Below, one piece after another: positions 3,416-28,910 of a DNA stretch of 33,923 nucleotides; positions within the stretch are counted from its first letter, which is position 1, and every line of letters begins with the position of its first letter. Below the pieces are notes generated by a model. That model was not told the origin of the DNA. It worked only from the letters and a program-made list of their open reading frames with translations, and ran no database searches. The stretch lies in contig JAFCCG010000008.1 in NCBI GenBank assembly GCA_017610335.1, positions 1-33,923 on the forward strand. Reading direction: 5' to 3'. Origin of the DNA: Chloroflexota bacterium. Lineage in GTDB: Archaea > Iainarchaeota > Iainarchaeia > Iainarchaeales > GCA-2688035. Made by a program: the position numbers and the translations under genes.

Positions 3416-4981
3416 TTGGAAGAAAAAAAAGAAGAATGTGGTATAGCAGCAGTTTCCCTGCCAAAAAACATGAAAAACCCGCCAATAGGGGGTGCTGCAT
3501 ACTATTTGTATAAAATGCTGTTGCAACAACAGCACCGTGGCCAAAACAGTGCAGGAATTACAACTTACAGGAAACAAAGAATGCAAATAATTGACACCTA
3601 CAAAGAACTCGGAATAGTAAACAAGGTTTTCAGAAGCTACGATATGAAAAAAAACAAATCAATTTTGGAGCATTATTCAGGAACAAAAGGAATAGGACAT
3701 GTAAGGTATGCTACAAGCGGAAGTGACAAGGCAGGAAATGCACAGCCTTTTGAAAGGCATCATGGAAGGCTTTGGAAATGGTTCAGCTTTGTATACAACG
3801 GGCATATAGCAAACTTTTCCGAATTAAAAAAAGAACTCAGGTCTGCAAGCTATCATTTGGTGCACAATACAGACACAGAACTTGTAATGCACTATATCTC
3901 AAAACTGCTCGCAGGAAACAAAAAACCAGACCTTGCCAATCTTTTTGGAGAACTTAGTGAAACTTTTGACGGAGCATACAATATTTCATATATTAATGCT
4001 GAAGGGCTACTGGCGGTTGTAAGAGACCCTTTAGGAATAAGACCAGCGTGTTACAATTACAATAATGGATTTTTCATAGCAGCAAGCGAATCATGCGCTC
4101 TCACAAGTTATGAAATTGAAGATATAAAAAATATTAAACCAGGCGAAATAGTAATTATCGAAAACGATTCTGTTGAAGTAAAAAGATTTGCAAAAAAGAA
4201 AAAGGCTGCGCACTGCATGTTTGAATGGGTTTATTTTTCAAATCCTGCCTCAGTACTTGACAATGCAAGTGTTTATGAAACAAGATGGAAGCTTGGGGAA
4301 AAGCTTGCAAGAAATGAAACAATGGATATCAAAGACAAAGACTTTGTGGTTGTTGCCGTGCCTGATACTGCAAAACCTGCAGCAGCAGGTTATGCTAACA
4401 AAACAGGGTTGCCGTCAATGGAAGGCCTTATAAGAAACAGGTATGTTGGCCGAACATTTATTGAAAGCGGGAACAGGCTTGAAATTGCAAGGGAAAAATA
4501 CAATGTTAACAAGTCTGTTATTGAAGGAAAAAAAGTGATATTGGTTGATGACAGCATTGTAAGAGGGACAACTGGAAAGGCCTTTATTGAAATGCTTAGA
4601 AAAAGGGGCAAGCCAAAAGAAATTCATATGAGGGTAAGCTGTCCCCCGATAAAGTATCCTTGCTATTACGGAACAGATATGTCAACATTGCATGAGCTTG
4701 CAGCACCAAAGCATATGTCATTGGATGAAGTACAGGCGATAGGAATTGATGTTTCAGACAAGGTTATTGAAAAGATTGGCAAAGAAATGGGATTAGACAG
4801 CCTTGCATACCAAAAAATTGAAGGAGTCAAAAAATCAATTAATTTGCCTGAAGAAAGCGACGGGCTTTGCATGGCATGCCTTACAGGAAAATACCCGACA
4901 GAATGCGGGAAAAAACTGTTCTGCAAGGCATTGCAGGAATTTGTAAAAAATCCAAAAAAAAAGCACAAGAGAATTGTTTAA
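3416..4981 (+). CDS. purF: Amidophosphoribosyltransferase (PurF), copy 1
   Basis: Class II glutaminase Cys (EECGIAAV), QQHRGQNSAGI, NRYVGRTFI, PRTase loop VILVDDSIVRGTT, Fe-S-type Cys positions (AHC, YPC, LCMAC). TTG start with upstream GGTGAG. Confidence 0.93.
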   Translation: MEEKKEECGIAAVSLPKNMKNPPIGGAAYYLYKMLLQQQHRGQNSAGITTYRKQRMQIIDTYKELGIVNKVFRSYDMKKNKSILEHYSGTKGIGHVRYATSGSDKAGNAQPFERHHGRLWKWFSFVYNGHIANFSELKKELRSASYHLVHNTDTELVMHYISKLLAGNKKPDLANLFGELSETFDGAYNISYINAEGLLAVVRDPLGIRPACYNYNNGFFIAASESCALTSYEIEDIKNIKPGEIVIIENDSVEVKRFAKKKKAAHCMFEWVYFSNPASVLDNASVYETRWKLGEKLARNETMDIKDKDFVVVAVPDTAKPAAAGYANKTGLPSMEGLIRNRYVGRTFIESGNRLEIAREKYNVNKSVIEGKKVILVDDSIVRGTTGKAFIEMLRKRGKPKEIHMRVSCPPIKYPCYYGTDMSTLHELAAPKHMSLDEVQAIGIDVSDKVIEKIGKEMGLDSLAYQKIEGVKKSINLPEESDGLCMACLTGKYPTECGKKLFCKALQEFVKNPKKKHKRIV

Positions 4982-5095: not shown

Positions 5096-6460
5096 TTGAG
5101 CGAAATTAAGGAAAACTGCGGAGTTTTCGGAATTTACAGCAATGGCGATGTTGTTAAACGAATTCATTTAGCACTTCATTTTTTACAACACCGTGGTCAA
5201 CAATACTGCGGAATAGCCACAAGCAACAAAAACAAGATAATAATTCAAAGCCATAAAGGAAGTGTTGACCCAACATTTACAAGAGAAGATTTTGAAACTT
5301 TGCAAGGAAATTTTGGAATAGGGCATGTAAGTCTGAATGACAGGCAGCCAATGACACTCCATAGCAAACTTGGTGATTTTGCAATATGCTTTAATGGAAA
5401 CATTGCAAATGCAGGCGATTTAATACCACAGTTTAAAAAAAGAGGCTACAGTTTTTGGCTTGACAGTCAGGTTGAACTCCTTGCAAAAATTATTGCACAG
5501 GAAGAAAGCTTTGTTGAAGGAATTGAAGCAATAAATAAGACTATTGAAGGAAGCTACTGTATTCTGATTCTTACACCTGACGGAATTTTTGCAGCAAGAG
5601 ACAAATTTGGATTTAAACCGCTTATTCTGGGAAACAATGGAAAAGATTATGCCGTTGCATCAGAAAGCAGGGCTTTACAGAATTTGGATATGGAAATTGA
5701 AAGAGATGTAAAACCAGGCGAAATTGTTTTTATTGACGGAACAGGCTTTAAGACATTAAAGCATTTGCCAGAAAAAAGAACCGCACACTGTGCATTTGAA
5801 TGGGCATATACAGCAAGCGTTGATTCAGTAATTGACGGAGTTTCAGTTGACAAAGCAAGAAACAATATGGGGGCAATGCTTGCAAGAAAAGACAAGGGAA
5901 AACTTGAAGCAGATATTGTTGCACCTGTTCCAAACAGCGGAATAGGACATGCTGAAGGATATCATTTGGAAAGCGGTATTCCGTTGAAAAGCGTCTTTTT
6001 GCTTGACAGGTACGGTGACAGAAGCTATACTCAGGCAACACAAGGAGAACGGGATAGCATGGCAAAGAAAAAATTAAGCGTTTTAAGAGAAGCTGTTAAA
6101 GGAAAAAGAATTGTAATATGTGATGACAGTATTGTAAGAGGAACACAAATTAGAGAAAAAGTAAAGGAATTGAAAAAAGCAGGTGCAAAAGAAGTTCATG
6201 TCAGAATTGCGGTTCCACCGTTAATGCACCCTTGTAGATATGGAATTGCAACAAAAGACTATGACGAATTAATTGCAAGAAAAATGTCTGTTGAAGGAAT
6301 ATGCAAATATATTGAAGCAGACAGCCTGCGTTATAATACATTGAAAGATCTGTTTGAAGCAATTGGAAAGGGACCGAATGAAATGTGCCTTTATTGCTGG
6401 GATGGCAAGACAGTAGAAGAAAAACAAAAAAAGATTACAGAACCAGTTAATAGAGCCTGA
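5096..6460 (+). CDS. Amidophosphoribosyltransferase-like paralog, copy 2
   Basis: NCGVFGIYS, LQHRGQQYCGIAT, IVICDDSIVRGTQ, Fe-S-type Cys positions (AHC, HPC, MCLYC). RYVGRTFI is replaced by RYGDRSYTQ. TTG start. Confidence 0.87.
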   Translation: MSEIKENCGVFGIYSNGDVVKRIHLALHFLQHRGQQYCGIATSNKNKIIIQSHKGSVDPTFTREDFETLQGNFGIGHVSLNDRQPMTLHSKLGDFAICFNGNIANAGDLIPQFKKRGYSFWLDSQVELLAKIIAQEESFVEGIEAINKTIEGSYCILILTPDGIFAARDKFGFKPLILGNNGKDYAVASESRALQNLDMEIERDVKPGEIVFIDGTGFKTLKHLPEKRTAHCAFEWAYTASVDSVIDGVSVDKARNNMGAMLARKDKGKLEADIVAPVPNSGIGHAEGYHLESGIPLKSVFLLDRYGDRSYTQATQGERDSMAKKKLSVLREAVKGKRIVICDDSIVRGTQIREKVKELKKAGAKEVHVRIAVPPLMHPCRYGIATKDYDELIARKMSVEGICKYIEADSLRYNTLKDLFEAIGKGPNEMCLYCWDGKTVEEKQKKITEPVNRA

Positions 6461-16624: not shown

Positions 16625-18688
16625 ATGATTGAAGGCATAAAGCTCAAAGGCTGGAAAACTCATTATGACAGTTCTTTTGAATTTGGAAAAGGAACAAACG
16701 TGTTAGTAGGACAAATGGGGTCGGGAAAAAGCAGTGTAATGGACGCGGTTTGTTTTGCATTATTTGGAACCTTTCCAAGCCTGCAAAGTAGACGTGTTTC
16801 CCTGGAAGAAGTTATAATGACCAAGCCTCACCAGGCAGAAGAAGCAAGTGTAGAACTTGCATTTTCTTATAATAAAAAAAGTTATAGGGTTGAACGAAAA
16901 ATTAAAAAAAAAGGCAGTACTGAAGCAAAAATTTGGTGCGAAAAAAAGGTTTTGGCAGGACCAAAGCCAAGGGATGTCAATCAAGCGGTTGAAAAAGCGA
17001 TTGAAATTAATTACAATTTATTCAGCAGAGCAGTATACAGTGAACAAAACGAAATAGATTCCTTTCTGCGACTAACACCAAGTGAAAGAAAAACAAAGTT
17101 TGACGAGTTATTAGATTTGCAACGATATGATGTTGTAAGAGGAAATGCAGTAACTGCTTCAAACAGGTTTAAGACAATAGCAAAAGAAAAAGCCGCAATT
17201 GTTAAAGAACAAAAAGATTCTTGGGACAAAAAAGGAGAGAAAGAACTTTTGAAAAGAATCGAAGAAAAAGAAAAGGAGAACAAAGAACTTGAAGACAAAG
17301 CAAAAGAAAAAGCACTTGAATCAGAAATGTTGACAAAAGAAAGCAAGGAATTGGAAGAAAAGGAAAAAGAATTTAGAAAAATTAAAGAAGAACTTAGTGG
17401 AAAAACTGCAGCAAAAGCAGAACTGGAAAAAACGATTAAAGAAACAAAAAAAGAGGCCGGGAAAAAAAGTTTGGATGAGATTAAAAAAGAGCAGGAAACC
17501 CTGGCGGAAGAAATTAGGAGATTGGGGAAAAAGATTTTGGAAGCAAAGGGAAAAGAAGAAGCGGAAGGGAAGAAAAAAGTTGAGTTTGGAAAAGAAGCGG
17601 CATTAAGCCAAAAAAAAGCAGAAGAACTCAATAAACATTTGGAAGAATTTAAGGAACTGGGAGCAGAATGCCCTACTTGCAGACAAAAGCTTGAAGTTAA
17701 GACAAGAGAACAGCTTGTGCAAGAAACAGAAGAAGGAATTAAAAAAGCTGCTTCAAAACTCGAAGAAGCATTGAAAAAAGAAGCAGAAGCAAATACGGTG
17801 ATTGAAAAGCTAAAAAAGGAACTGGAAAAAGCAATGGCAGAAAAGGAAAAAACAAGAGAAGAAGAGATTAAACTTGAACAATTAAAAGAAGCAATTATTA
17901 AACTTGTAGAAAAAGAAACGCAAACGGAAAATGTTGCAAAAGAAATTTCCATTCTCGAAAAACGTTTTAAAGAAATTGACTTTAATGAAAAAGAGCTTTT
18001 AGAAAAAAGAAAAAAAGCAATTGAAACAAAAGCATTTGCAGAATCAGCAAAGAAAGAGATTAAAGCAAATTGTCAACTTGTAAAAGAAATGAAAACAGGA
18101 ATTGAAAAAATTGAAAAAACAAAAAAGCAAATTGAAAAATGGGAAGAAAAAATAAAGATTCTTGAATCAAATTCTGAAAAAATGGGATTTTTTGTAAACA
18201 GTCTTATTGCAGCACAAGCCGAACTCAGAGAAACGCTTATTTCAACAATCAATGAAGCAATGCATGATATCTGGCAAAGAATTTATCCCTACAAGGATTA
18301 TGTTTCGGCAAAAATGGATGTTGAAAAAGGAAGCTATGAATTAAAAGCAAAAGAAAAAGGCGGAAACTGGGTTAGAGTCGAAGGAATTTTAAGTGGGGGA
18401 GAAAGAAGTGCTGCGGCAATATGCATCAGGATTGCCTTTTCTTTAGTACTTACAAGAAATCTAAGCTGGCTTATTTTAGACGAGCCAACACACAATTTGG
18501 ACAAAAACGCAGTCGAAACACTTGGAAAAATGATGCAATTGCATTTGCCTTCGATTGTAGAACAGGTTTTTGTAATAACCCACAATGATGAAATGAAAAA
18601 AGCAGCTTCGGCCTCACTTTATATTCTTGAAAGAGAAAAGGATGAGGATGCTGCAACAAAACCTATTCTTGTACCGATTGAAGAGTGA
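16625..18688 (+). CDS. rad50: Rad50 DNA double-strand-break repair ATPase (short, 687 aa)
   Basis: LVGQMGSGKSSVMDAVCFALFG Walker A, zinc hook ECPTCRQKL, ILSGGERSAAAICIRIAFS signature, LILDEPTHNLD Walker B. Confidence 0.93.
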   Translation: MIEGIKLKGWKTHYDSSFEFGKGTNVLVGQMGSGKSSVMDAVCFALFGTFPSLQSRRVSLEEVIMTKPHQAEEASVELAFSYNKKSYRVERKIKKKGSTEAKIWCEKKVLAGPKPRDVNQAVEKAIEINYNLFSRAVYSEQNEIDSFLRLTPSERKTKFDELLDLQRYDVVRGNAVTASNRFKTIAKEKAAIVKEQKDSWDKKGEKELLKRIEEKEKENKELEDKAKEKALESEMLTKESKELEEKEKEFRKIKEELSGKTAAKAELEKTIKETKKEAGKKSLDEIKKEQETLAEEIRRLGKKILEAKGKEEAEGKKKVEFGKEAALSQKKAEELNKHLEEFKELGAECPTCRQKLEVKTREQLVQETEEGIKKAASKLEEALKKEAEANTVIEKLKKELEKAMAEKEKTREEEIKLEQLKEAIIKLVEKETQTENVAKEISILEKRFKEIDFNEKELLEKRKKAIETKAFAESAKKEIKANCQLVKEMKTGIEKIEKTKKQIEKWEEKIKILESNSEKMGFFVNSLIAAQAELRETLISTINEAMHDIWQRIYPYKDYVSAKMDVEKGSYELKAKEKGGNWVRVEGILSGGERSAAAICIRIAFSLVLTRNLSWLILDEPTHNLDKNAVETLGKMMQLHLPSIVEQVFVITHNDEMKKAASASLYILEREKDEDAATKPILVPIEE

Positions 18689-18689
18689 A

Positions 18690-19871
18690 CTACCACCTAA
18701 CAAGTTGAGTGGCTTCCTGTTTCATTGACAAGACTTGCTTCGGGCTTATGCCGTCAGTAGAGGCTTCATCTCTTTCAGGCGTTAATTTGGGCTGTTCCAG
18801 CCCTATCTTACCTATTGTAAGAATATTTATTGAGGCGTTTATGTCCCTGTCTATTTTTAGACCACAATTGAGGCAATTATGTGTTCTTATTGCCAGCGTT
18901 TTTTTGACAATATCTCCACAACCACTGCACTTTTGTGATGTGTTTTTTGGATTCACTTTCACTACTTTTCCACCAGCACTTTCAGCCTTGAAAGAAAGTT
19001 TGTTTGTGAAATCACTCCAACTAACATCTGTTATTGCTCCTGCGAGGCAGTGGTTTTTTACCATTCCTCGCACATTTAAGTTTTCTAAATATATCGTTTC
19101 GTACTTTTCTATAAATTTTCTGCATAGTTTCCAACCAAAGTCATTTCGGACGTTGGCTACTTTTTCATCTACTATTGCCAGCCTTATTCTTGCTTTGTTT
19201 CTGTTGTTACTTCTTTTTGTTGTTTTGCTGAATTCTCTTGCCAGTGTTTTCCTTTTCTTTGCCATTCCTTTCATTGGTTTTGGATGGTCAAAAAACTCAC
19301 CGTTACTTGTGGTAACAAAGTGGTTTAGTCCGAGGTCTATTCCGATTTCGCCTTTGCCGTGTTTTAATCTTTCCGTGGTTGGATTGGCACAGGATATTGT
19401 GATGAAGTATTTTCCGCTTTTGGCTTTTTTGATTGTAAGTGTTTTAGGGGTTCCTGTTATTGGCCTATGATATTTGGTGTTCAGCCAGCCTATTTTTGGA
19501 AAATAGGTTTTCTTGCCTATTTTTTCTGGGTTTACTATTTGTGGGAGAGTGATACTGGCGTATTTGCCATATTTTTTGAAGCGTGGAAAGCCCTTCTTTC
19601 CTTCCCCTCGTTTTACTCTTGCAAAGAAGTTTCTGTATGCTTTGTTTATTCTGTCTGCAACATTCTGGCTAACTTGGGAGTAGGCTTCTTTGTTTTTTCC
19701 TTTTGTTTTTTTAATAAGGTCAAAGCGCGTCAGGCTTGTTTTGTCTTTTTTGTAAGCGTCTTTCTTTAGTGAAAGCAATTCGTTATACAGTTGCCTGCTT
19801 TGTTCTATGTTTTCATCTATGGCTATCGCTTGAGATTTCGCAGGATATATTCGGTATTTGTAGGTTTTCAT
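18690..19871 (-). CDS. tnpB: TnpB RNA-guided nuclease / IS605 OrfB
   Basis: IGIDLGLNHFVTTSNGEF RuvC-I, IYLENLNVRGMVKN, zinc finger TSQKCSGCGDIVKKTLAIRTHNCLNCGLKIDRDINASINIL. Confidence 0.95.
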   Translation of the reverse strand: MKTYKYRIYPAKSQAIAIDENIEQSRQLYNELLSLKKDAYKKDKTSLTRFDLIKKTKGKNKEAYSQVSQNVADRINKAYRNFFARVKRGEGKKGFPRFKKYGKYASITLPQIVNPEKIGKKTYFPKIGWLNTKYHRPITGTPKTLTIKKAKSGKYFITISCANPTTERLKHGKGEIGIDLGLNHFVTTSNGEFFDHPKPMKGMAKKRKTLAREFSKTTKRSNNRNKARIRLAIVDEKVANVRNDFGWKLCRKFIEKYETIYLENLNVRGMVKNHCLAGAITDVSWSDFTNKLSFKAESAGGKVVKVNPKNTSQKCSGCGDIVKKTLAIRTHNCLNCGLKIDRDINASINILTIGKIGLEQPKLTPERDEASTDGISPKQVLSMKQEATQLVRW

Positions 19872-22242: not shown

Positions 22243-22560
22243 TCAAACTTTGCTTGCTCTGATTAGGATTTCACCATTTTCTTCTTGGATGAAAACTTTT
22301 TCTTTCTCTTTTAAGTGCAGCTTTTTGACTATTTTTGCAGGGATTATTGCTGCAATGCTGTTTCCTACTTTAACAAGCCTTCTTTCTTCTGCCATTGCTT
22401 TCTGCATTGCTTCAATTTTTTCCATTATTTTCTGTGAATACCAGATTTCTTTGCATTTGCCACACTTAAAAGATTCAACCTTTATGCCGGGCTCCACCTC
22501 GTCAAGAATCTTGCGAAGTTTTCCTTTTTCGCACTTTGGGCACTTTTCTCCTTCTAACAT
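22243..22560 (-). CDS. Zn-ribbon plus SpoVT/AbrB-domain protein (putative antitoxin)
   Basis: CPKC...CGKC ribbon, then RRLVKVGNSIAAIIPAKIVKKLHLKEKEKVFIQEENGEILI (AbrB fold). Confidence 0.85.
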   Translation of the reverse strand: MLEGEKCPKCEKGKLRKILDEVEPGIKVESFKCGKCKEIWYSQKIMEKIEAMQKAMAEERRLVKVGNSIAAIIPAKIVKKLHLKEKEKVFIQEENGEILIRASKV

Positions 22561-22563
22561 AGT

Positions 22564-22785
22564 TTATTGCCTCACATTCCAGTAAGCGGTTATCACAAAA
22601 CACTTTTCACCACGGTCTTTCCAAACCACAACAAGTTCGCCTTTCCTATATTTCTTCTTGCTTTTGAACTTGTTTGGCTTTTCATCCAGCTTCTTTTTCC
22701 CTGTTTCAATGCAATCAATTGCAAGCGTTGTATCAATCTCCTTATCCCTACTGTAATGCTTGCTGAAGAAAAACAAACGCTTCAA
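22564..22785 (-). CDS. DUF4258-like protein (putative RelE-like toxin)
   Basis: FFSKHYSRDKEIDTTLAIDCIETGKK...KKYRKGELVVVWKDRGEKCFVITAYWN; ends 3 nt before the AbrB gene. Confidence 0.65.
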   Translation of the reverse strand: MKRLFFFSKHYSRDKEIDTTLAIDCIETGKKKLDEKPNKFKSKKKYRKGELVVVWKDRGEKCFVITAYWNVRQ

Positions 22786-22869: not shown

Positions 22870-24411
22870 TTACAGCAGCTCTGCGGTTTCAGCGTCTTTT
22901 TCTTCAAGCCCTTGTTCAAACTCAAGCCCTGCTTTTTCAAGACTTTTTTCATGCTTGCTTTCCGCGCTTTTTCTTTCCCTGACCTTAAAGAACAGGGGGT
23001 AGTGGGTTGCTTCTCCCACCAAAAGGGCTTCGCCAACCCTTAAGGAGGTAATCATGTCAATGCTTTTGCTGTCAAGGCCCTCTGAACTTTCCCCAATGTG
23101 TTTCAGGTCATAGGGGTTTGTTATTCTGAGAATAATATGGGTGCCACATTGTGATAATGTGGTTGTGTCAAGCTGCACAGGCCTTTGGGAAACAAGGCAT
23201 AGCGAAGCGCCAAACTTTCTCCCCTCTCTTGCAATTGTTCTGATAATTGAACGGCTTATTGCTGTTTCAGATTTTGCCATTTGCGGCGCGAACTGGTGGG
23301 CTTCTTCCAAAACCATTAGAAAGGGCGGAATTCTATTGCTTCGCCTCTCATTGAAAATCCTTTGCGCAAAATAGCTTACAATCACCTGCTTTTTCTTTAG
23401 GTTTATTGTGTCACTTAAGTCAACAACAGTAAGCTGACCTGGCTTTATCAAATCAGGAATGCTTGGATTATCTATTTTGCCAAAAAGCCTTAGCTCGCGA
23501 AGCATGTCAAGCCATCCAATTAAAGGCCCTTTGCTGTTTTCCTTTATTGCCTTATCCCTTGCAACAGCATCCCTTAGGTCATTCAAATCAAACGGGCCCA
23601 AGCCATCTTTCATCTGCTTTTTCAGCTCGTTTAGAATGCGTCCCAAATCCCTTTTTTGCGGAGCGCTTAAACCAGGAACTATTCCGGCAACAACTCCAAC
23701 GCTTAATTTTGGAACACCGATTTTTATATCTGATGCCTTTACAAGTCTTGTTTTTTTACTATAATCTTTTTTGCCTTTTTCGCTTGGCGGAATGGCAAAA
23801 CAGCTGTATTCGCCGTGGGGGTCCAAAACTATTGTTGCAATGCGCCCTTGTTCTTTTGGCCTGTCCAAAAGCTCTTCAAGGAGAACAGAAACACTGTAAG
23901 ATTTTCCAAAGCCAGACTGGGCAAGAAAACAAACATGTTTTTTTAAAAGCGAGGACATTCCAAGCTTTACTGGAAGGTTGTGATGGTCAACTTCTCCAAG
24001 CAATAATCCATTTTCATCAAAATTTAAAAAGCGTTCAAGGTTTTCTTTGGAAGCAAGCCTTATTCTTGTGCCAGGGCTTGGCGGAAATGTCACACGCTTA
24101 ATTGTTTCGTTTTCAAAATAACCCAAAGGTCTTGTTTTTGCAACAAGATATTCCCATTCAGCTGTTGGAAACTGTTCAGACATTGCAGAACCGTTTTTTT
24201 CAAATTCTTTTACTGAATCTGCTCTTTCAAAATAACGATTTGTTTTTTGTACATCATTTACAAGAGCTATTAATGTTCCTTTGCCAAAATCCATTTCAAC
24301 AAACTGACCTCGGTGAACCTTTCCGTTATTTACAACAAATTCAAGGCTTCCGGGAGAAGGGCCGTCCATGCTGCTTATTACTGTTCCAATGTTTTTCTCG
24401 TCCTTTGTCAT
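22870..24411 (-). CDS. herA: HerA bipolar DNA helicase/translocase
   Basis: GTVISSMDGPSPGSLEFVV HAS barrel, FLAQSGFGKSYSVSVLLEELL Walker A, TIVLDPHGEYSCF, FLMVLEEAHQFAP, IAREGRKFGASLCLVSQRP. Confidence 0.93.
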   Translation of the reverse strand: MTKDEKNIGTVISSMDGPSPGSLEFVVNNGKVHRGQFVEMDFGKGTLIALVNDVQKTNRYFERADSVKEFEKNGSAMSEQFPTAEWEYLVAKTRPLGYFENETIKRVTFPPSPGTRIRLASKENLERFLNFDENGLLLGEVDHHNLPVKLGMSSLLKKHVCFLAQSGFGKSYSVSVLLEELLDRPKEQGRIATIVLDPHGEYSCFAIPPSEKGKKDYSKKTRLVKASDIKIGVPKLSVGVVAGIVPGLSAPQKRDLGRILNELKKQMKDGLGPFDLNDLRDAVARDKAIKENSKGPLIGWLDMLRELRLFGKIDNPSIPDLIKPGQLTVVDLSDTINLKKKQVIVSYFAQRIFNERRSNRIPPFLMVLEEAHQFAPQMAKSETAISRSIIRTIAREGRKFGASLCLVSQRPVQLDTTTLSQCGTHIILRITNPYDLKHIGESSEGLDSKSIDMITSLRVGEALLVGEATHYPLFFKVRERKSAESKHEKSLEKAGLEFEQGLEEKDAETAELL

Positions 24412-24416
24412 AAAAA

Positions 24417-25064
24417 TCACCTTTTCCCCCTTGCAAGATTTTTGGAAAAGACAACATTGCCACCGTAAAACTGTTTTATTGAGATGTTAAACCTTTTTTC
24501 CAGCTGCTTTAGTCTTTTAGTAGAAAGTCCTGTAGAAACTATACCTGTTCCACCAGGTTTCAAAACAGAAACTATTTGAAAAAAAGCTTTTTCAGGCAAA
24601 GGAGTATATATTGTCCCTCCAACAGTTGAGACAACCAAATGAAACTTGTTCTTGCCAAATGTATCAACAAGTTTCATTACGTTTACTTCTTTGTCTGGCC
24701 ATCCAGTACCTCTTCTAACATCGGTTGTTGTTACATTTAATTTTTTACCAAATTCTGATTTTAAAAGTTCGTGTTTTAGACTGCTTCTTCCAGTTCCCTC
24801 ATCCAAAACCTCAAGTTTTTCAGGGAATCTTTTAGAAAGCTTTTGAAGCACTGGTTTAAATTTTATATTATGCCAGGATTCTACATCAGCCAAACTGTCT
24901 ATATCCAATGGCTCTTTAAAGCTCTTCCAATGATCATTTCTCGCTTTCCTTTCCTGCTCTGCAACCAGCTTCTTTTCCTCTAAGGAAACTTGCTCGAAGG
25001 ACATGTTTTTGCGCCTTCTAAGCTGTTTTTGACTTATTTGCATTTTTCTTTTTTTTGGTTTCAA
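24417..25064 (-). CDS. Methyltransferase-like paralog 1 (degenerate motif I)
   Basis: VSLEEKKLVAEQERKA... LEVLDEGTGRSSLKHELL... FHLVVSTVGGTIYTPLPEKAFFQIVSVLKPGGTGIVST. Confidence 0.75.
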   Translation of the reverse strand: MKPKKRKMQISQKQLRRRKNMSFEQVSLEEKKLVAEQERKARNDHWKSFKEPLDIDSLADVESWHNIKFKPVLQKLSKRFPEKLEVLDEGTGRSSLKHELLKSEFGKKLNVTTTDVRRGTGWPDKEVNVMKLVDTFGKNKFHLVVSTVGGTIYTPLPEKAFFQIVSVLKPGGTGIVSTGLSTKRLKQLEKRFNISIKQFYGGNVVFSKNLARGKR

Positions 25065-25070
25065 AAAAAA

Positions 25071-25760
25071 TCACCTTTTCTTCTTCCTGCCAATGTTTTT
25101 TGTGAAAACGATCCCTACTCCAGTCAGTTGCTTTACAGTAATGTTGAATTTTTTTGCTAAATTCTCTAACTGCAAAGGAGTCTTGCTAAAAACAAGATTG
25201 GTTCCAACAACTCCAACACCACCTGGCTTTATAACTGAAACTATTTGATAAAGAGCTTTTTTAGACAAAGAAGAATATTCAGCTCCGCCCGCGGTGGAGA
25301 ACACTAAATGAAATCTGTTTTTGCCAAACTTTTTAACCAAGCCCATTACTTTTACTTTTGTTGTCTTGCTAAAAAAACTGCTTCTTATATCTGTCTTGGT
25401 AACATTCAAATTTTTTCCGAAAGATTTACGCAAACCGGAAGCAAAACTGCTTTTCCCGGCACCTTCATCTAAAACCTCCAATGTCTCATCTTGAAAACGC
25501 AAAAACAGTTTTTCGATAATGGGTTTTATTTTTATGCCGTGAAATTGTTCAACTTCCTTTAGTGTTCTTCTGTCTGTTCTGCTAAAAGCACACTTTCCAA
25601 GGGAGCGGCTGTTCCAAAATGTTTTCTTTGCCGTTTCTTCCTGTTCAGCAACTGCCCTTTTTTCCGCAACAGAAAAATTTGTTAACGAAACATTCTTTCT
25701 TCCGCGTTTCTGTTTTTGCCTTATCTTTGCTTTTCTCTCCACAGCCCTCAAAAAAATCAT
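25071..25760 (-). CDS. Methyltransferase-like paralog 2
   Basis: FSVAEKRAVAEQEETA... LEVLDEGAGKSSFASGL... FHLVFSTAGGAEYSSLSKKALYQIVSVIKPGGVGVVGT. ATG 25760 overlaps the Zn-ribbon stop (ATGA); the longer track ORF start at 25940 is unlikely. Confidence 0.75.
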   Translation of the reverse strand: MIFLRAVERKAKIRQKQKRGRKNVSLTNFSVAEKRAVAEQEETAKKTFWNSRSLGKCAFSRTDRRTLKEVEQFHGIKIKPIIEKLFLRFQDETLEVLDEGAGKSSFASGLRKSFGKNLNVTKTDIRSSFFSKTTKVKVMGLVKKFGKNRFHLVFSTAGGAEYSSLSKKALYQIVSVIKPGGVGVVGTNLVFSKTPLQLENLAKKFNITVKQLTGVGIVFTKNIGRKKKR

Positions 25761-25930
25761 TCTCCTTTCTTCTTCAATTCCTTTACAAACTTTTCGTTTC
25801 CCTTCAGTCCAATTCCCTGATAGCCGCACTTTCCGCATTTGTACTGGTCTCCGAGCTTGCCTCCAAGCAGCCAGCACATGTCGGTTGAGCCACAGGAAGA
25901 GCAGACAATGAATTCTTTTTCTTTCTCCAA
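25757..25930 (-). CDS. 57-aa Zn-ribbon protein, missing from the ORF track
   Basis: TTG start: LEKEKEFIVCSSCGSTDMCWLLGGKLGDQYKCGKCGYQGIGLKGNEKFVKELKKKGE*; two CxxC knuckles, in the third frame between paralogs 2 and 3. Confidence 0.85.
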   Translation of the reverse strand: MEKEKEFIVCSSCGSTDMCWLLGGKLGDQYKCGKCGYQGIGLKGNEKFVKELKKKGE

Positions 25931-25936
25931 ACAAAA

Positions 25937-26596
25937 TCACTTTTTCTTTTTGGTGTTTTTAGTAAAAACAATACTATTAACGCAATCCTCACCTCTGGAC
26001 TCAAAAGACTTAAATGATTGGATATTGATATTAAACGTTTCAGCCAATTGACGAAGCCTTTCTTTTGGAATTCCAGTGGCTATTATTCCTACGCCTCGGG
26101 GTTTCAAAACAGAAACTATTTGAAAAAACGCCTTTTCTGGCACAGGGGAGCGCCATGCCCCACCACCAGTTGAAACCACCAAGTGAAATCGGTTCTCGCC
26201 AAATCTCTCGACCAAGTGTACCACATTAACTATTACATCTGGCTTCTTAGGCATTGGCCACATTATGCCTTTGCATATGTCTGTTGTAGTAACATGCAGG
26301 TCCTTGAAACGCCACAACAACCCCCTCTTCAAACTGCTTCTTCCAGCACCCTCATCCAAAACCTCAAGAGTTTGGTCAGGGAATTTCTTTCTTAATTCTT
26401 TAATTATTGGCTTGAACTTTATGCCATGAATACAATGCTGAATAGCATGTATATTACGCCCAATGGCGCCAAACCACTTTAGCCTTGTTCTAAAAAGTTT
26501 AGCTCTGCGTTCCTGCTCAGCCACGGACTTTTCTTCGCTTGCCGAAAGCTTGTGGAATAAAACCTTCTCCTTTTCCTTTTTATGCATTTCCCTCAA
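25937..26596 (-). CDS. Methyltransferase-like paralog 3
   Basis: LSASEEKSVAEQERRAK... LEVLDEGAGRSSLKRGLL... FHLVVSTGGGAWRSPVPEKAFFQIVSVLKPRGVGIIAT. Confidence 0.75.
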   Translation of the reverse strand: MREMHKKEKEKVLFHKLSASEEKSVAEQERRAKLFRTRLKWFGAIGRNIHAIQHCIHGIKFKPIIKELRKKFPDQTLEVLDEGAGRSSLKRGLLWRFKDLHVTTTDICKGIMWPMPKKPDVIVNVVHLVERFGENRFHLVVSTGGGAWRSPVPEKAFFQIVSVLKPRGVGIIATGIPKERLRQLAETFNINIQSFKSFESRGEDCVNSIVFTKNTKKKK

Positions 26597-26599
26597 ACC

Positions 26600-27697
26600 T
26601 CAAAATGGCCTGCTGTCCCTTCTAAGCCTTAATTTAAATCCCTTGTTCAATTTGTTTAAAATCTTGTCGTAAACTATTTCAATTTCCTGCGAGTGAAGCT
26701 TTGCATGCAGGTCGGCCTCGATTAAAATTGAGGGATAGGCATATTCTCTGTGCATGCAACTTTGAGCAAACACCATTGACGCAACTTTGGAAGCATGCTT
26801 TGAAATACTTTCGCCATTCTGATGCAGGAATTCAACACGCAAAGGTCTGTCAAAAGAAACAGGCTTTAAATAAAATGCTCTGACGCTTTTTGACCATTTT
26901 TCATCAAAATCCATCAGAATAGGGTGCTCTTTTGTGCTGGCAGTGTAATTGAAAGCAAAACTTCTTTCACCTGGCTTTAGCAAATAATCCAAAAGTATTG
27001 CGTCATAACAGCCTTCAAGCTGCCATGAAAGATTTTTCTGGTTTGAAAGAAGTTGTTCCTGCAAAATCTGCCTAAAACGCGAGCCTCTGCTGTCTTCAAC
27101 GCATCCCACAAGCTCACAATCGTTTTTTTCCGCAATTTTGTAAAGTGATTGAAATTGTTTAAGCATTTCATGGTAATCGCTTTTAATTCCACTTTCGTTC
27201 CTTGGCTTGTCAGCATATTGCGGAACAATACTTCCGTCAAGAAAACAAAATTCCGGAGAAAATTTTTCAATAAGGGCTTTTGCTGTTTCAACTTCCTTAA
27301 TTAATCTTTGAATGCTTTTACTGCATTGAAATTCATCAGCTTCCAAACCAGCTTTGCTCAGACTTGGTTCAGGAAAAGCATAAAAGCTAGGGAAGTAATC
27401 GGCTTTTGCAAGCTTTTCTTTTTTATAATTGAACACTGCTCCAACAGCTCTTATTAGCACAAGGTCAAGCGCAAAAAGGTCCTTGTCAATAAAACCAGAG
27501 TCAACACCTGCAATTTTACAATTCAAAGAAGACTTTTCAACCGGGATTATGAGCTTTTCTTCTGCAAGCTCTGGAGATCCTGATTCAAGCAAATTCAATT
27601 TTGTTAAAGGCAAAAGCTTTTCGCTTAAAATCTTCCTTTTTTTATCCAACTCAGAAATGGTTGTAACAGCCTCATTAATAACGCTTGTAATTTCCAT
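26600..27697 (-). CDS. nurA: NurA 5'-3' nuclease
   Basis: IAGVDSGFIDKDLFALDLVLIRAVGAVF, EFCFLDGSIVPQYADKP, ELVGCVEDSRGSRF, C-terminal HASKVASMVFAQSCMHREYAYPSILIEADLHAKL; in an operon with herA. Confidence 0.87.
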   Translation of the reverse strand: MEITSVINEAVTTISELDKKRKILSEKLLPLTKLNLLESGSPELAEEKLIIPVEKSSLNCKIAGVDSGFIDKDLFALDLVLIRAVGAVFNYKKEKLAKADYFPSFYAFPEPSLSKAGLEADEFQCSKSIQRLIKEVETAKALIEKFSPEFCFLDGSIVPQYADKPRNESGIKSDYHEMLKQFQSLYKIAEKNDCELVGCVEDSRGSRFRQILQEQLLSNQKNLSWQLEGCYDAILLDYLLKPGERSFAFNYTASTKEHPILMDFDEKWSKSVRAFYLKPVSFDRPLRVEFLHQNGESISKHASKVASMVFAQSCMHREYAYPSILIEADLHAKLHSQEIEIVYDKILNKLNKGFKLRLRRDSRPF

Positions 27698-27733
27698 CCA
27701 ATAAAATAAGTAAAAATGACATTTAAAAGCTTG

Positions 27734-27756
27734 CGGAAAGAGCAGGCTTCCGGTGA
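27734..27756 (+). repeat. Dispersed hairpin element, copy C
   Basis: CGGAAAGAGCAGGCTTCCGGTGA; 17/19 match to copy B core, CGGAA/TTCCG stem. Confidence 0.6.
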
Positions 27757-27769
27757 AAGATGACTAAAA

Positions 27770-28426
27770 TTATGGCTTTTGGATTCTTATCACAACATCA
27801 ACATATTCAACAAAATCGATTCTCTTTTTTAAATACCTTGCAGTTATTTTTAGATTTGGCCTTTTTTTTCGGAATTTGCTTAGGAATCTTTTCGCCTCTT
27901 CAACCGTGAAATTGTGGGTGCTTGGCTTATAAACTGCAGGAATAACAGTGAAAAGAACACCGCCTGCTTTCAGGTGTGAAATTGAATTTGCAATGCTTTT
28001 TCCAATAAGGCTCTTTGAAAGCACATAATCTTCCCCAAAGCAGTCATAAATCATATCAAATTTGGTGCCGTGCTTTAGCCTTAGGCCTATTCCCTGTTTA
28101 ACTCTGTCAATCTTGGCGAGGTTTTCTGCTTTGACTGTTTTTGAAAGGGTTAAAGCGGTTGCGTGTATTCTTTCAGGATTAAATTGCTTTACTTCTGAAA
28201 GCATTCTTCCGGCGCCGGCACCCTTGTCAAACACTGAAACAGTGCCATTTTTTGCTCGAATTTTTTTGCCGATTGCAATAGTAAGAGAATTTTTGAATGG
28301 AGCCTCTGAAAGAGACCTGTCAAGGTTGTAGGGGTTATCGCCCTTGCCTACATCGTGATTTCTGGCCCACTTAATTGCTTTGCTAAGGCTCTGCCTGTGC
28401 TTTTGCACACTAAGCTTTCTTTTCAT
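27770..28426 (-). CDS. SAM-methyltransferase-like protein (divergent fourth member)
   Basis: VSVFDKGAGAGRMLSEVKQFNPERIHATAL... FDMIYDCFGEDYV... SISHLKAGGVLFTVIP. Confidence 0.65.
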   Translation of the reverse strand: MKRKLSVQKHRQSLSKAIKWARNHDVGKGDNPYNLDRSLSEAPFKNSLTIAIGKKIRAKNGTVSVFDKGAGAGRMLSEVKQFNPERIHATALTLSKTVKAENLAKIDRVKQGIGLRLKHGTKFDMIYDCFGEDYVLSKSLIGKSIANSISHLKAGGVLFTVIPAVYKPSTHNFTVEEAKRFLSKFRKKRPNLKITARYLKKRIDFVEYVDVVIRIQKP

Positions 28427-28535
28427 GCTTAAATATTCATCACTGCAAGAATTTAATTCTTTCCCTTAACTAAAGGCAAAGCTTTTTTAATCTGGGTTTA
28501 CTTACTTTGTAAGAAAGAGATTTCAGGGTGTGAAA

Positions 28536-28910
28536 ATGGCAAGCGCAATTTTTTTGATTAAAAGCATTACACAGCATTGGAGGCCTCCGTTTGGCAAGGA
28601 AATAACAGAGCTTGAAATGGATGTGGACGAAGGAAAAAAGTTTGACGATTTTCCAAAAGAAGGCCCAATTTTCAAACTTGTCAAATGCGACGGAGACAAG
28701 GCATTAATTGAATTCAGCGGAAAATTCACTTTGAAAGGCCATTTGCATCCAAGAAACAGACAAATCTGGATTGAAAAGGACGAAGCAGTAGACTTTGCTT
28801 ATTTATGGGGCGAAGACGGGATAACGAAGAGCCTCAAATTGAAGGAAATTGTTAGGAAAAGTCAGGAAGAAAACCAGCAAATTTTGGAAGAAGGTTTGAA
28901 TCCTAAATAG
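28536..28910 (+). CDS. Hypothetical protein
   Basis: Coding-like composition; MASAIFLIKSITQHWRPPFGKEITELEMDVDEGKK... No recognised family. Confidence 0.6.
   Translation: MASAIFLIKSITQHWRPPFGKEITELEMDVDEGKKFDDFPKEGPIFKLVKCDGDKALIEFSGKFTLKGHLHPRNRQIWIEKDEAVDFAYLWGEDGITKSLKLKEIVRKSQEENQQILEEGLNPK

Follow-up and report, generated by a model that had tools for sequence, protein, structure and literature searches.

Methyltransferase-like genes inside a HerA-NurA operon of a probable Diapherotrites archaeon: candidate lineage-specific accessory factors

According to two reports (PMC4351679, PMC5715905), HerA-NurA resects DNA ends in archaea. How this pair is regulated, and how blocked DNA ends are processed before resection, is still largely an open question in these organisms. 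The locus described here raises it in a specific form: why should three paralogous methyltransferase-like genes (MT1, MT2, and MT3) and a gene for a small zinc-ribbon protein stand between nurA and herA? The locus lies on contig JAFCCG010000008.1 of assembly GCA_017610335.1 (1.29 Mb, 95 contigs, completeness 87%), and the whole of this contig (C20; 33,923 bp) is referred to below as the window. It most likely derives from a DPANN archaeon of the Diapherotrites type. Our answer, offered tentatively and with somewhat less than even confidence, is that this is a HerA-NurA end-resection operon with lineage-specific accessory genes. MT1–MT3 would be S-adenosylmethionine (SAM)-binding factors of the class I methyltransferase (MTase) fold that target either DNA ends or the complex, and the zinc ribbon would be a general partner.

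Operon packing, paralogy, and predicted fold

On the minus strand, the genes follow the order MT4 (a further MTase-like gene), nurA, MT3, zinc ribbon, MT2, MT1, herA, and they are densely packed from nurA to herA. Every gene described in the original prediction, which was made from the letters alone, was found in its place, and the small gaps and overlaps it had claimed between nurA and herA were measured as 3–12 nt or as overlaps. The nurA–MT3 interval is 3 nt if MT3 starts at its TTG; counted to the ATG at 26587, which is probably the true start, as it agrees with the starts of the orthologs, it is 12 nt. MT3 is followed by the zinc ribbon after 6 nt, the zinc-ribbon stop and the MT2 start overlap by 4 nt, and the next two intervals are 6 nt (MT2–MT1) and 5 nt (MT1–herA). 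The putative ribosome-binding site of MT1, GGTGAT, contains the stop codon of MT2, and that of herA contains the stop codon of MT1 in the same way, which makes translational coupling of MT2, MT1, and herA likely. The packing and the embedded stop codons also suggest that the genes from nurA to herA are co-transcribed.

The three central genes share 46–51% pairwise identity over approximately 200 residues (MT1–MT2, E = 2e-53; MT1–MT3, E = 2e-48). This similarity is far beyond chance, so that they can be regarded as true paralogs, in agreement with the common motifs already quoted for them. Their GC content (0.36–0.41) is inside the range of the neighboring genes, and a recent horizontal insertion, considered on the grounds of base composition, was rejected for this reason.

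The AlphaFold2 model of MT1, based on a 10-sequence alignment, is confident (predicted local distance difference test, pLDDT, 85; predicted TM-score, pTM, 0.82) and shows a class I MTase fold: after two N-terminal helices, strands and helices alternate in the manner of this class. A Foldseek search with the model retrieved 205 PDB chains at E ≤ 1e-3, and the best 50 listed were nearly all SAM-dependent MTases, led by the archaeal m4(2)C rRNA synthase 8vyd, UbiG (4kdr), and METTL6, with moderate TM-scores of 0.3–0.5. The class I fold suspected originally is therefore predicted by AlphaFold2 and backed by Foldseek. The sequence-level matches were weak: the best Pfam E-values were 0.003–0.02 (Methyltransf_25/31), all under the cut-off, MT3 matched NCBIfam BioC at 1.4e-6 (28 bits, with a cut-off of 185), and a search of PDB sequences with the family profile returned weak MTase matches only.

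The first of these fold matches, an rRNA synthase, is accompanied by other enzymes acting on RNA (METTL6 for tRNA, RsmC for rRNA), and one family member unlinked to nurA and herA lies on a contig that also bears translation genes. The paralogs might thus be rRNA or tRNA MTases with a basic RNA-binding tail, merely co-expressed with HerA-NurA. However, the fold matches are unspecific, as lipid and small-molecule MTases score alike, and both the patchy presence of the family and its triplication would be unusual for a housekeeping rRNA/tRNA MTase. We consider this explanation unlikely.

Comparison of 11 homologs indicated that the positions expected at a SAM site are largely kept. In motif I (D-x-G-x-G), D88, G90, and G92 are nearly invariant and E89 and S94 are invariant, as is D115, the acidic residue at the end of strand 2, while the third glycine of motif I is replaced by the invariant serine at position 94 in all members. 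Farther along, S146 and G150 are invariant and G149 nearly so, and the family signature FGK-N-(R/K)-FHLVVST-x-GG covers strand 4 and the usual catalytic position. Judging by these kept positions, putative SAM binding by MT1–MT3 looks possible. The term “degenerate” originally applied to the paralogs was overstated, since D-x-G-x-G and the strand-2 acidic residue are retained and only the third glycine is changed. MT3 and its ortholog in genome G006 are 75% identical, with nonsynonymous (dN) and synonymous (dS) divergences of 0.15 and 0.60; the resulting dN/dS of ~0.25 shows purifying selection. The paralogs thus resemble class I SAM-dependent MTases in the predicted Rossmann-like fold, in D-x-G-x-G, and in the acidic residue after strand 2, but differ from them in the sub-cut-off family matches, the serine in place of the third glycine, and two extra basic N-terminal helices. 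A Lys/Arg-rich N-terminus is found in almost all members of the family, linked to nurA/herA or not.

A serine at the third motif-I glycine in every member would also fit a pseudo-methyltransferase scaffold or SAM sensor that tunes HerA-NurA by the SAM level without catalysis. Foldseek also matched the model to SAMTOR, an MTase-fold protein that senses SAM, although the resemblance is at the level of the fold only, and the PTP-like proteins found elsewhere between nurA and herA (see below) are mostly degenerate in their Cys-X5-Arg loop. Set against this are the low dN/dS and the conserved S-T-x-G-G after strand 4, a position at which catalytic residues are found in class I enzymes. The scaffold idea, part of the original prediction, is weakened by the conserved SAM-site positions and keeps the motif-I serine on its side; we regard it as rather improbable.

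In the scenario that we prefer, MT1–MT3 would share a transcript with HerA and NurA, with translational coupling in part of it, and would bind SAM, and their positively charged N-terminal helical pair might bind nucleic acid. They would serve as dispensable accessory or regulatory factors that bind the HerA-NurA complex or the DNA end, and resection could be tuned through methylation of a component or through SAM sensing. The zinc ribbon would be the general partner gene of the pair.

Distribution of the family and its linkage to nurA and herA

A survey of 87 genomes of the phylum (strong match, E ≤ 1e-35) revealed 14 strong members of the MT1–MT3 family in nine genomes. Half of these adjoin nurA or herA; they come from five genomes, which represent two families. 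Three are in the window, the nurA–herA intervals of G005, G011, and G017 hold one each, and the last is in G045, 61 nt upstream of nurA. The genomes with such a gene inside the interval represent three genera, all within the family to which the window belongs. The interval copies of G000, G005, G011, and G017 form one clade with the copy of G006 (support 99/98). The G045 copy, also beside nurA, falls in a separate branch, and the association with nurA therefore probably arose at least twice. The copy in G006 follows a fragment resembling the C-terminus of the zinc ribbon and ends against ftsZ, suggesting that it was probably displaced from the interval; the remaining strong members are surrounded by unrelated genes. 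The position relative to the zinc ribbon also varies: the MTase-like gene precedes it in G005 and follows it in G011 and G017, and the window has such genes on both sides of it. The interval of G005 is split by a contig end, with nurA and an MTase-like gene on one contig and the end of such a gene, the zinc ribbon, and herA on another. A second copy in this genome, across contigs C18 and C31, was considered and rejected; the two ends nearly overlap, and a single gene broken by the assembly is likelier.

The association of the family with HerA-NurA is consequently real but lineage-restricted. The linkage to herA-nurA held for the seven adjacent copies, with the G006 copy after its zinc-ribbon remnant as an eighth, and failed for the rest, which are scattered, and for the majority of nurA-herA pairs. 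The accessory module proposed originally is accordingly plausible in some lineages only. The MTase-like genes are thus accessory and prone to loss or movement, yet kept at nurA-herA in several genera.

An accessory slot between nurA and herA

Both genes were found on a single stretch in 57 Diapherotrites genomes, and in every one of these nurA directly precedes herA in the same orientation. They are separated by a gap of at most 100 nt in 19 genomes, 100–350 nt in 12, and more than 350 nt in 26. The zinc ribbon, with four cysteines invariant in 13 homologs, is found in this gap in many families of the order, and 19 of its 25 matches at E < 1e-15 are in the interval or directly beside herA; it appears to be the older and more general third gene of the operon in this archaeal order.

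Two further, unrelated protein families occupy the interval in other families of the phylum: a PTP-like family with a basic C-terminus, related to DSP-PTPases (Pfam 1e-10 for the G035 protein), and a HAD-type phosphatase family (Pfam 1e-23). All strong matches to either family in the phylum (7/7 PTP-like and 12/12 HAD) are located at nurA-herA. Past the linked set, the HAD matches drop from 1e-79 to 1e-42. When 18 unlinked HAD proteins were included in a tree, the linked proteins were all placed on the same side of one branch, whose support is modest (75/72). In G040, G043, and G050 (loci L154, L141, and L181), single or tandem PTP-like genes with broken active-site loops stand in the interval, a parallel to the tandem genes of the window.

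The accessory role that we propose for MT1–MT3 is based on the tight packing with overlapping ribosome-binding sites and stop codons, the 99/98 clade, the occurrence in three genera and in G045, the dN/dS of ~0.25, the fold, and the conserved motif positions. It is also based on the sharing of the slot by the PTP-like and HAD families, which are found at full strength only there. Several observations weigh against it. Of the 14 strong family members, seven have neither nurA nor herA as a neighbor in the assemblies, and an MTase-like gene is missing from most of the 57 intact pairs. The closest relatives, G003 and G007 (NurA 92 and 91% identical), have nurA, the zinc ribbon, and herA and none of the three MTase-like genes in the interval, which makes these genes dispensable. 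No known catalytic motif was recognized in MT1–MT3. The PTP-like and HAD query profiles were built from the slot proteins themselves, which favors linked copies, even if no equally strong unlinked copy was found. Finally, the slot is not exclusive, as elsewhere it also holds unrelated genes (toxin-antitoxin, DHFR and ThyA, and a sugar-kinase-like gene). The occupancy counts cover the nurA-herA pair only.

A serious rival, possible although short of probable in our view, is that the gap is a permissive insertion slot and the MTase-like genes are passengers kept there without a functional tie to HerA-NurA. The intervals of more than 350 nt (26 of 57), some with the unrelated toxin-antitoxin or DHFR/ThyA genes, and the absence of the family from the closest relatives would be expected of passengers. 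The nurA-herA flanks are also conserved within the family, and simple vertical inheritance could hold the position. However, a small set of protein families is found in the slot again and again across families of the phylum, with HAD and PTP-like proteins at full strength nowhere else, a copy from a separate branch adjoins nurA in G045, and the packing is so tight that the ribosome-binding site of herA overlaps the MT1 stop.

The accessory reading could be extended to the whole phylum. In this possible but doubtful scenario, Diapherotrites would possess a HerA-NurA accessory slot, usually with the zinc ribbon and filled according to lineage by one of three unrelated types, MTase-like, PTP-like, or HAD-like proteins, that act as interchangeable end-processing or regulatory partners, a hitherto undescribed accessory layer of double-strand break repair in archaea. 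The phosphatase-like slot proteins may hint at end cleaning or at regulation by modification. No report of such genes with HerA-NurA was found in open-licence PMC papers (methyltransferase/operon, DPANN, Diapherotrites), which does not in itself prove novelty. As they are found largely or wholly at nurA-herA, the zinc ribbon and the MTase-like, PTP-like, and HAD-like proteins are concrete candidates for accessory subunits, and they are small enough to be purified with HerA-NurA and assayed directly.

HerA-NurA type and the surrounding genes

The NurA domain and the central ATPase domain of HerA (DUF87) are encoded together in the window, both above the Pfam cut-offs, and the N-terminal HAS-barrel domain of HerA scores 17.3 bits (cut-off 25.2). 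Since HerA-like ATPases and nucleases recur in defense systems (PMC10853773, PMC11291478), an antiviral or self-recognition function, in which self DNA is marked by the MTase-like proteins and DNA without the modification is destroyed by HerA-NurA, has to be weighed. The patchy presence of the family, as in defense genes, and the matches of the window HerA to PADLOC HerA models would fit. The locus shares a HerA-type translocase and a nuclease with the HerA-based anti-phage systems (HerA-DUF4297, HerA/FtsK capture; PMC11291478, PMC10853773), but here HerA resembles archaeal repair models most closely, the nuclease is NurA, and both are near-universal core genes of the phylum (HerA in 75 and NurA in 74 of the 87 incomplete genomes). 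The top NCBIfam matches of HerA are archaeal repair models, and the anti-phage HerA models reach 114 bits (cut-off 800) and 111 bits (cut-off 850); no DUF4297 or SIR2 partner was found among the neighbors examined. Motif IV of DNA methylases (DPPY/NPPY or PC) is absent from MT1–MT3, in which the stretch after strand 4 is FHLVVSTxGG. The HerA ATPase was the sole source of strong matches to the defense library in the locus, collections of viral contigs, phages, and plasmids yielded no match to the MTase-like proteins, and the other slot proteins are phosphatase-like. A restriction-modification or defense reading was rejected on the lack of motif IV, of defense-library matches beyond HerA, and of mobile-element homologs. 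The earlier suggestion of modification and self-recognition was left unsupported, and we consider it very improbable.

Most hyperthermophilic archaea have nurA and herA in a cluster with rad50 and mre11 (PMC2288612; for the complex, PMC5715905). The window resembles this cluster in its linked, co-directional nurA and herA and in a nearby rad50-like gene (16625–18688), but this gene is ~4.2 kb beyond herA and convergent, and the nurA–herA interval carries the zinc ribbon and MTase-like genes. No mre11 adjoins nurA-herA or the rad50-like gene in the window, the genome outside it not having been searched for Mre11. A TnpB-like protein, read from the sequence, is encoded at 18690–19871 (minus strand) and directly abuts the rad50-like gene.

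Table 1. Genes of the nurA–herA locus in the window.
Gene	Coordinates	Strand	Product and characteristics
MT4	27770..28426	-	218 aa, MTase-like, family different from MT1–MT3; 72 nt upstream of nurA
nurA	26600..27697	-	365 aa nuclease; Pfam NurA 6.6e-15, above cut-off
MT3	25937..26596	-	Class I MTase-like paralog; ~50% identity to MT1
Zinc ribbon	25757..25930	-	57 aa, C4 zinc-ribbon protein
MT2	25071..25760	-	229 aa, class I MTase-like paralog; 51% identity to MT1
MT1	24417..25064	-	215 aa, class I MTase-like paralog; basic N-terminal helices 3–24 and 28–43
herA	22870..24411	-	513 aa HerA-family ATPase/translocase; Pfam DUF87/HerA central domain 1e-26

MT4 was considered as a fourth copy of the paralogs and rejected, being 18% identical to MT1 and a member of another MTase-like family. 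It matched Pfam MTS below the cut-off only, its single-sequence AlphaFold2 model (pLDDT 48) was too poor for use, and orthologs of it are also found upstream of nurA in G002 and G012.

Apparent inteins split HerA in one continuous frame in G003 (L057:1970–5068) and G017 (L064:2209–4773); both inserts have Cys as the first residue and HN or GN at the end, before a Cys. Apparent inteins, likewise in a continuous frame, were also seen in HerA of G018, G020, G034, G040, G046, G064, G065, and G068, of which G040 seems to hold two. In the numbering of the window HerA, the three insertion sites are at approximately residues 172 (close to Walker A), 375, and 441. Just downstream of herA, at 22243–22785 (minus strand), a MazE-like antitoxin-domain protein and a DUF4258 protein form a possible toxin-antitoxin-like pair. 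On the other side of the locus, a small protein with the pattern W-x-PPF ... LWG-x-x-GITK (28530–28910, plus strand), for which no Pfam match was found, has its gene upstream of nurA in divergent orientation, a conserved arrangement shared by many genomes of different families. Farther away, an adjacent pair of amidophosphoribosyltransferase-like (PurF-like) genes was read from the sequence at 3416–4981 and 5096–6460 (plus strand).

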